Below are positions 6,485 to 8,162 of a stretch of 26,055 nt of DNA, piece after piece (position 1 is the stretch's first letter; the number at the start of each line of letters is the position of its first letter). Source of the stretch: an uncultured Frankiales bacterium (lineage in GTDB: Bacteria; Actinomycetota; Actinomycetes; Mycobacteriales; SCTD01). Location of the stretch: NCBI GenBank assembly GCA_946479905.1, contig CAMLIA010000037.1:1-26055 (forward strand), read 5' to 3'. The notes beneath the pieces are model-generated. The model was given only the letters and a program-made list of their open reading frames with translations. It had not been told where the DNA came from and searched no databases. The position numbers and the translations under genes are program-made.

Positions 6485-7354
6485 GTGGGATCGCTTCCTA
6501 GGACGTTGCGGGTGGGGCTGGCCACCTGCGCGGCGTGGCCGGACCTCGACGCCGACGGCCCGGAGCTGCGGGCGGCCCTGGCCGCGGAGGGCCTCGCGGC
6601 CGAGGTCGCCGTCTGGGACGACCCGGCCGTCGACTGGGACGGCTACGACCTGGTCGTGATCCGCTCCACGTGGGACTACTGGGACCGCCGGGACGACTAC
6701 CTCGCCTGGACGCGCCGGGTGCCGCGGCTCGCCAACGGACCCGACGTCGTCGCGTGGAACACCGACAAGGCCTACCTCCGCCGGCTCGCCGACGCCGGCG
6801 TCCCCGTGGTGCCGACCGCCTGGGTCGCACCGGGGGAGCCGTTCACCGCGCCCGAGCACCCGTTCGTCGTGAAGCCCTCGGTGAGCGCCGGTGCGCGCGG
6901 GACGGCCGCCTACGAGGCCGGCGACGAGCGCGCCGCGGAGCACGTCGCGCGGCTGCACGCGGCGGGCAAGACGGTGATGGTGCAGCCGTACCTGGCGGAG
7001 GTGGAGGACCGCGGCGAGACGTCGGTGCTGGTCTTCGACGGCGAGGTCTCCCACGGCGCGCGCAAGTCGGCCGTGCTCACCAAGGGCGCGGGTGAGGCCG
7101 AGCCCGGCAGCTGGACGATCTCGGCGCGCGAGCCGTCGGCGGAGGAGGTCGCGCTCGCGGAGCAGGTCGTGGCGGTGGCCGCCGGCTGGGGCGAGGACCT
7201 GCTCTACGCCCGCGTCGACCTGCTGCCGGGGCCGGTGGTCGTCGAGCTCGAGGTCACGGAACCGTCGCTGTTCCTGCTGCAGGCGCCGGGGTCGGCGGCG
7301 CGCTACGCGCGGGCCGTGCGCGCGTGGACAGAGCGAGCCAGCTCGCGACGGTGA
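6485..7354 (+). CDS. ATP-grasp domain protein, substrate unknown
   Basis: Predicted ATP-dependent carboxylate-amine or similar ligase with a RimK/glutathione-synthetase-like ATP-grasp fold. Visible family features are VIRSTWDYW (about 59-66) and NTDKAYLRRLADAGVPVVPT. The nucleotide-binding lysine strand is HPFVVKPSVSAGARGT, and the Mg-ligand strand near the C-terminus is VVVELEVTEPSLFLL. The length, about 280-290 residues, suits single-domain members. No reaction can be assigned from sequence. The start is uncertain: GTG 6485 gives the longest frame, TTG 6506 gives the N-terminus most like homologues (xRVGLATC), and GTG 6512 lies seven bases after a TAGGAC hexamer and could be leaderless. No ribosome-binding site supports any of them. 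The 3' end overlaps ctaA on the other strand by 101 bp. Confidence 0.82.
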   Translation: MGSLPRTLRVGLATCAAWPDLDADGPELRAALAAEGLAAEVAVWDDPAVDWDGYDLVVIRSTWDYWDRRDDYLAWTRRVPRLANGPDVVAWNTDKAYLRRLADAGVPVVPTAWVAPGEPFTAPEHPFVVKPSVSAGARGTAAYEAGDERAAEHVARLHAAGKTVMVQPYLAEVEDRGETSVLVFDGEVSHGARKSAVLTKGAGEAEPGSWTISAREPSAEEVALAEQVVAVAAGWGEDLLYARVDLLPGPVVVELEVTEPSLFLLQAPGSAARYARAVRAWTERASSRR

Positions 7355-8162
7355 ACACCGAGGTCGCGAGGGCCACGTGCACGGCGACCAGGCCGGCGGG
7401 CACCCCGTTGTAGTACTGCCAGTAGCCGACGGCCACCTGGGTGGCCAGCAGGCCCAGCAGGGCCAGCCCCCAGGGGCGGTACGACGTCCGCCACGCCACC
7501 ACGACGGTGGCCAGCAGCAGGCCGGTGAGCAGCCACACCGCGTCGGCGTGCAGCTGCGTGACGTCGCGCGGGTCGAAGGGCAGCCGCTCCACCTTCGGGT
7601 CGCCCGCGTGCGGGCCCGTCCCGGTGACCAGCGTGCCGAGCACCAGCACGACGCTGGTCGCCCCGACCACCCCCCAGCTCAGCCCATGAATGCTTGCTGG
7701 GACTGCCCGTTCGGGCTGAGAAGGCAATCCCAGTGAGCATTCATGGCGGAGGCGGGAGAGGAGGGCGGCGGCGGCGAGGACCAGCGGGAAGCTGGTGAGG
7801 AAGTGCAGGATCAGCACGTAGGGGTTGAGGCCGCTCAGCACCAGCAGCCCGCCGATGACGGCCTGCAGGGGGACGACGGCTGCCTGCACGAGCGCGAGCC
7901 GCTGGTGCTGCGGGGCGTACCGCCGCACCGCGACGACCAGCGCGATGCCGACGGCCTCCATGACCACGGCCAGCAGCCGGTTCCCGAACTCGATGTAGCC
8001 GTGCGCGCCGAGCGCCGCGGTGTTGGTCAGCGACGACCCCGTGCAGCGCGGCCAGGTCGGGCACCCGAGCCCGGAGCCGGTCACGCGGACCGCCGTCCCC
8101 GACACGACCAGCAGCATCTGCAGTCCCAAGGCGAGGGAGGTGAGCCGTCGGACCAGGAGCAC
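7254..8162 (-). CDS. ctaA: Heme A synthase (COX15/CtaA family) with an in-frame palindromic insertion
   Basis: Membrane enzyme that oxidises the C8 methyl group of heme O to the formyl group of heme A for cytochrome oxidase. The product has 302 residues and about eight helices in two four-helix halves. The first half carries the conserved cysteine pair in GSGLGCPTWPRC (C34, C40), the H54/E58 region in AHGYIEFGNRLLA, and H120 in ILHFLTSF. The second half carries matching histidines in VTQLHADAVWLL and AVHVALATS. The start is GTG at 8160-8162, six bases downstream of TACGCT. Codons 140-160, in the loop between helices four and five (expected cytoplasmic), are encoded by a 63-bp palindrome with AT-richer codons than the rest of the gene. 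The frame is intact, so the enzyme is probably functional. The last 101 bp are antisense to the ATP-grasp gene. Confidence 0.94.
   Translation of the reverse strand: MLLVRRLTSLALGLQMLLVVSGTAVRVTGSGLGCPTWPRCTGSSLTNTAALGAHGYIEFGNRLLAVVMEAVGIALVVAVRRYAPQHQRLALVQAAVVPLQAVIGGLLVLSGLNPYVLILHFLTSFPLVLAAAALLSRLRHECSLGLPSQPERAVPASIHGLSWGVVGATSVVLVLGTLVTGTGPHAGDPKVERLPFDPRDVTQLHADAVWLLTGLLLATVVVAWRTSYRPWGLALLGLLATQVAVGYWQYYNGVPAGLVAVHVALATSVFTVASWLALSTRARPARSAPPTPAPAAGTATVP
7684..7746. repeat. 63-bp palindromic element inserted in frame in ctaA
   Basis: Two 24-base arms (7684-7707 and 7723-7746) are inverted copies with 21 of 24 positions matching, around a 15-base loop. Each outer end is CCATGAATGCT read inward. 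As plus-strand RNA, two of the three differences become G-U pairs. The element is 63 bp, a multiple of three, and reads through without a stop. Its GC content is about 57%, far below its surroundings. On the ctaA strand it uses CAT, GAA, TCA, TTG, TCT, CCA, GCA and ATT, codons nearly absent from the flanking gene. It resembles a REP/MITE-like or Rickettsia-type palindromic coding insertion, but no family is recognised. Confidence 0.8.

Follow-up and report, generated by a model that had tools for sequence, protein, structure and literature searches.

The window analysed here, a 26,055-nucleotide stretch of DNA from an uncultured Frankiales bacterium, carries a long palindrome inside the reading frame of ctaA, the gene for heme A synthase. 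The question it raises is whether a mobile DNA element has come to be translated there as part of a membrane enzyme. The inverted-repeat arms at 7684-7707 and 7723-7746 are complementary at 21 of 24 positions (88%) and are separated by 15 nt, exactly as a sequence-only reading of this locus had described (Table 1). That reading also held that the arms pair better as plus-strand RNA, and two of the three arm differences, read from the sequence, do become G-U pairs. The plus-strand RNA from 7670 to 7760 folds at -53.2 kcal/mol, compared with a shuffle mean of -33.1 (z -5.56; none of 200 shuffles equalled it). The GC content of the palindrome is 0.571, compared with 0.67 to 0.78 for the 1-kb blocks of the window. 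The GC3 of the overlapping codons is 0.45, compared with 0.96 elsewhere in ctaA, and at 8 of the 22 overlapping codon positions the codon occurs nowhere else in the gene, bearing out both the deviant composition and the otherwise avoided codons noted earlier. A palindrome scan of the whole window returned no second palindrome.

Table 1. Coordinates of the palindrome and its host gene in the window, with the sites shared by two related genomes.
Feature	Position	Strand	Description
Inverted repeat as first described	7684..7746		24-nt arms, 15-nt loop
Palindromic core, 59 bp, the unit common to relatives	7686..7744		20+19+20 build of the G007 and G005 copies; matched by model R2 with filters off
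Left arm, 20 nt	7686..7705	+	
Spacer, 19 nt	7706..7724		in the ctaA sense, 13 of 19 bases equal the G007 ctaA copy
Right arm, 20 nt	7725..7744	-	inverted copy of the left arm
ctaA, heme A synthase (COX15-CtaA)	7254..8162	-	ORF through the palindrome; Pfam PF02628; 4 invariant histidines
Sites shared by G007 and G005			ctaA, L176/L205, L178/L347, L182/L340, L183/L214, L190/L197

The ctaA frame stays open through the palindrome, with no stop codon on its strand, and the insert falls in frame at the linker joining the two helix bundles of CtaA; both points had been made before and hold. The palindrome overlaps codons 139-160, with its ends off the codon borders, and the 59-bp core encodes approximately residues 140-159. 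Since the unit common to relatives is 59 bp, a length divisible by three, as claimed for the first-described repeat, is not a property of the element, and the flanks set the frame. The predicted structure (mean pLDDT 72) places the insert between helices 113-143 and 156-182, and the pLDDT drops to less than 50 over residues 145-153. The linker presumably faces the cytoplasm. Residues H54, H120, H205, and H262, which we take to be the heme ligands, are invariant across 37 aligned CtaA rows and intact in the window. P0001, a near twin, matches the window CtaA in all of 259 kept columns outside the loop and differs at 3 insert residues, and by this comparison the insert changes fast. At its 3' end, ctaA overlaps a called plus-strand gene (6512-7354) by approximately 100 bp, tail to tail.

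A palindrome could arise by chance in a variable linker. Linker length varies in every CtaA row examined, and when the window was simulated 200 times with a first-order Markov model, 2 of the copies contained one or more palindromes of equal quality. On composition alone the palindrome is unusual but not impossible, and the case therefore stands on the comparison with relatives. We compared 24 genomes of one family, reached from one related locus, 22 of which contain ctaA. Palindromes related to that of the window are referred to as type A (in G007 and G005), and those of the other type as type B (in G004 and G009). The ctaA linker carries a type A palindrome in G007 and G005, each in the genome's own arm sequence or dialect, a type B palindrome in G004, and a weak one in G008; it carries none in G006, G001, and G009. 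In the window, G007, G005, and G004, the palindrome is in frame and translated. Three relatives have palindromes with different arms at this linker, which speaks against chance, as do the two tests of family membership below, and we consider a chance origin extremely improbable.

The relatives also carry such palindromes dispersed over their genomes, with approximately 27 copies in G007, approximately 40 in G005, and at least 31 in G009. Used as a query, the ctaA palindrome of G007 gave 42 matches in its own genome (E<=10; the weakest look like chance), that of G005 gave 51 in G005 (E<=1), and that of G004 gave 81 in G009 and 10 in G004 (E<=1); matches of these queries in other genomes were few and weak. 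The dispersed copies are near-perfect palindromes, and both arms occur in order in 80 of the 81 elements kept after two chance hairpins were taken out. Their core length is nearly fixed: 59 bp in 24/26 G007 and 23/23 G005 copies, and 67 bp in 30/31 G009 copies. Within one genome, the arms are much better conserved than the spacers. A model that included the window copy (R1) gave matches at E<=0.1 in 6 of the 24 genomes (G005 81, G007 54, G009 11, G002 6, G004 2, G016 1), usually on both strands of one element. Unbiased palindrome scans covering 400 kb of G006, 336 kb of G008, and 252 kb of G001 yielded a single type B-like element, in G006, and a doubtful one in G008. A palindrome of another kind, with 35-nt arms matching at 31/35 positions, lies at L263:4294-4366 of G006.

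Does the window copy belong to this family? Model R2, from which all ctaA copies were left out, recovers those of G005 (E 9e-18) and G007 (E 1e-13). With filters off it also finds the window copy at 37 bits (E 3.7e-9) in the exact register, and the second-best place in the window reaches 16 bits. Under default filters R2 missed the window copy, together with L085, L086, L310, and L333, and the sequence-only model R3 missed it as well, finding only the copies of G005 and G007. Across 1.42 Mb in 79 other actinobacterial loci, no match under default filters was better than E 0.31. The mean identity of the window copy to 47 family copies, two of them from ctaA, is 31.7 of 59 positions, compared with 16.1 for position-permuted window palindromes (0/2000 as high), which exceeds what palindromicity alone would give. 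The window copy is therefore a member in build and in sequence, in a clearly different dialect. The exact arm pattern, whose search had been proposed as a check, had no match in the genome contig collection, which fits genome-specific arm sequences, and against plasmids and phages the window palindrome gave short pieces only. The proposed dispersed family was thus found as same-build families in related genomes, and these relatives suggest that the genome of the window organism would carry one too. A palindrome test from protein sequence with free loop length was discarded as too noisy. With the 59-bp geometry fixed, 6 of 37 rows reached p<=0.01 (the window, P0001, P0002, P0010, P0012, P0014), a result of little weight because P0010 has no insert by the length rule and P0014 is G005 itself.

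Dispersed copies are concentrated at gene ends. Convergent gene pairs occur at 12/26 elements in G007 (12/106 other gene pairs), 14/23 in G005 (6/84), and 11/31 in G009 (12/110), and a fuller census gave 13/27 in G007 and 22/40 in G005. The median distance from the core to the facing stop codon is 8 bp in G007, 6 bp in G005, and 25 bp in G009, and 34/35, 33/37, and 21/36 facing stops, respectively, lie within 30 bp of the core. Among 67 G005 and G007 copies, only the two in ctaA lie wholly inside a called gene, with genes taken from a home-made caller that missed ctaA itself, so that ctaA was labelled by hand; one G009 copy lies wholly inside a called gene. Orthologous empty sites in G006 include L206/L257 and L210/L255 (G005) and L230/L262 (G009). 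At L210 of G005 the element supplies the stop codon, and the corresponding G006 gene has its own stop and no element. Target-site duplications, which had been suggested as a sign of insertion, were not obvious on inspection of three empty sites. The 4 bases after the core are G-and-C-rich in both the type A and type B alignments, and there is no T-run directly after the stem. An ordinary intrinsic terminator was rejected on this ground, leaving terminators that lack a T-run as candidates.

The strong fold invites another reading, namely that the ctaA transcript contains a conserved RNA hairpin maintained through selection on the mRNA or on an antisense RNA, the dispersed copies having to be explained separately. 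In the 48 type A rows, 18 of 25 stem pairs have undergone double changes (0/500 shuffles had as many), which would agree with this reading, but these rows are almost all extragenic copies and the count is inflated by relatedness within dialects, and the type B rows (n=31) show no covariation above shuffles. Moreover, the close relatives G006, G001, and G009 have a ctaA without the palindrome, and the same sequence family is present at unrelated loci. We regard such a hairpin as very unlikely to be the explanation.

Symmetric changes on the two arms were also counted within single genomes. They are in clear excess in G005 (22, compared with 8.9 in shuffles; 0/2000), to which its two dialects contribute, in mild excess in G007 (12 compared with 6.1; 19/2000), and absent in G009 (0, with 4.5 expected). 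In the G009 copies L218-L245, the mismatches in the stem fall repeatedly on the same inner positions (core positions 15-17), and left and right variants never coincide; columns 20/56 and 21/55 are unpaired in 14/31 and 10/31 rows. It is as if an irregular stem were kept in these copies. Searches of 16 sources against Rfam gave a cobalamin riboswitch alone at the gathering score (RF00174; G007 locus L169:517-658, minus strand), and 8 further sources gave two weak matches, both away from the elements. Elements L333 and L195 had no match in phages.

Each genome has its own arm dialect. At 7 diagnostic columns, own-genome alleles are in the majority in 24/24 G007 and 23/23 G005 copies, including those at shared sites, with the majority narrow at some copies (4 to 3 at L214). 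G005 (L193-L217, L339-L353) holds two dialects side by side, GAATGGACACTGCGCTGCG and GAATGGCTACAGCACTTCG; the G004 copy L309 belongs to the second of these. A further dialect of approximately 60-68 bp, GTGATCAAGCAGCAGTGCTGCGG, is found at L310, L315, L319, and L321 of G002, a more distant family member.

Among the 27 and 40 copies of G007 and G005, six sites are common to both genomes with both flanks matching beside the element (Table 1). L186/L342 is a probable seventh, L169/L346 matches on one flank only, and at the G007 site L189 the G009 counterpart is an element of the other type. At the six sites, ctaA included, each genome carries its own dialect. This could come about if the drifting specificity of a trans-acting factor rewrote both arms of all resident copies, including that in ctaA, at each dialect change, a process we consider possible and on balance unlikely. 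If it were true, the linker of a housekeeping membrane enzyme would be periodically overwritten for a selfish or architectural DNA element. The ctaA copies of the window and G007 look as though a single old insertion had undergone a concerted change of both arms: 13/19 spacer bases are alike compared with 21/40 arm bases, and, by reading, five stem positions are changed on both arms. This is a single case, and the spacer is coding there. The window and G005 ctaA copies share 6/19 spacer bases.

The same sites could instead be hot spots, the ctaA linker among them, which the dialect active at the time hits independently in several species while residents are left unrewritten; such a reading opposes rewriting in place and not the mobility of the element. 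At seven shared pairs of G005 and G007, spacer similarity does not exceed that at unrelated pairs (8.14 compared with 8.06 of 19; p 0.49), and neither does arm similarity (29.7 compared with 29.9 of 40). This favours replacement or re-insertion, or plain saturation. The history of the ctaA site also bears on the matter. Loop rules sorted 128 CtaA rows, several of them near-duplicates, into 17 type A, 9 type B, 65 without insert, and 37 other; the short loop of these 65, by the length rule, and the empty G006 linker agree with the earlier suggestion that relatives may lack these residues. All type A rows lie within one supported 39-row clade, and the type B rows lie outside it. A tree of 36 rows needs 6 state changes, 3 of them forced by starred branches, and a single clade of the 18 insert rows apart from the 13 insert-free rows was rejected (AU p=0.00014). 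Inserts have therefore been repeatedly gained or lost, in a tree that does not separate gains, losses, and allele exchange. P0008 and P0052 have insert boundaries unlike those of G007-like rows and stand beside the insert-free P0018; from a reading of the loops, they look like a separate insertion and P0010 like a loss. Against independent hits, the spacer and paired stem changes of the window and G007 fit one old insertion, and an identical left boundary and frame every time is much to ask of independent events. We place repeated hits at slightly less than an even chance.

Several known systems resemble this element in part. REP elements, as the available part of PMC3733652 describes them, are short, dispersed, species-specific palindromes that lie mostly outside genes, on their downstream side and frequently between convergent ones, with some intragenic copies known. 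The relatives' copies resemble them in being palindromic and species-specific, in lying 3' of genes, and in their convergent bias, and the ctaA copy is intragenic. An irregular stem is a further REP feature (PMC8266576, in the part available), and the G009 copies retain an inner mismatch. They differ from REPs in their core of near-fixed length (59-67 bp, compared with 20-40 bp) and in having no GTAG or CGTC tag, as the 4 bases flanking the core showed no such consensus in either the 48 type A or the 31 type B rows. The RAYT-type transposase that had been anticipated did not appear: Y1_Tnp (PF01797) was found in 0/7 relatives at E<=0.01, all draft genomes, with working positive controls. Rickettsia palindromic elements (RPEs), according to the part of PMC10969869 at hand, are palindromes of approximately 150 bp inserted in frame in protein genes, translated, and frequent inside genes. 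The earlier comparison with them stands for the in-frame, translated insert seen in ctaA of several genomes; it fails for the size of approximately 60 bp and for the copies outside ctaA, almost always extragenic, with no other G005 or G007 copy wholly within a called gene. The element thus seems to work like a REP caught in a protein gene, its features matching neither class fully.

MITEs, ERIC, NEMIS, and Myt-1 are small non-autonomous stem-loop repeats near gene 3' ends (PMC1590033 and PMC2267715, both in part), from which our elements may differ, no clear target-site duplication or parent IS having been seen. A check for a parent element with the G007 arm pattern gave 45 matches, 42 of them inside complete palindromes by our reading, and almost no single arms, in draft genomes, which often miss repeats. 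Dialects of a dispersed motif are likewise known among the DNA uptake sequences of Neisseriaceae (PMC3630211, in part), and in Haemophilus, for which approximately 1300 copies are quoted, uptake sequences form inverted pairs at gene ends (PMC5217627, in part). An uptake sequence was rejected, given tens of copies and the near absence of single arms. Beyond the family, strict filters over 249 genomes of the order gave 10 matches at E<=0.001, six outside the family. Two of these, G103 and G115, hold 40 and 41 matches of one element type at E<=0.1, and the other four have none at that threshold. The G103 and G115 copies (L322, L328-L338) are dispersed palindromes, CGCGAGCAGACRCAAAA. A Mycobacterium ulcerans plasmid record contains a similar element (E 4e-3, 77% over 84%), and similar palindromes presumably exist in M. 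tuberculosis. Myt-1 of M. tuberculosis, with 72 bp and 75 members in the part of PMC2267715 available, may be related to the G103/G115 dialect. None of the literature matches listed describes these elements, which is no proof of absence.

Taken together, we assign a probability of about 0.8 to the reading that the window palindrome is a ctaA-resident member of a short, dispersed, non-autonomous, REP-like element that is spread by a trans-acting factor and tolerated in CtaA. A copy would have entered the ctaA linker as DNA, and would have survived there because the loop tolerates approximately 20 extra residues. A transposase, a recombinase, or a site-specific DNA-binding protein may spread the family and keep it uniform. 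The extragenic hairpins probably act at transcript 3' ends, and the peptide encoded in ctaA is presumably a passenger.

Extragenic palindromes seldom receive a natural experiment inside a protein. Here, one coding site, in a membrane enzyme, has captured insertions, losses, and switches of dialect over many species, and it can therefore show whether such elements are re-inserted or rewritten in place. The findings also point to similar-build palindromes in other genomes of the order, and to the presence of a putative mobiliser or binding factor in a lineage in which no Y1 transposase was found.
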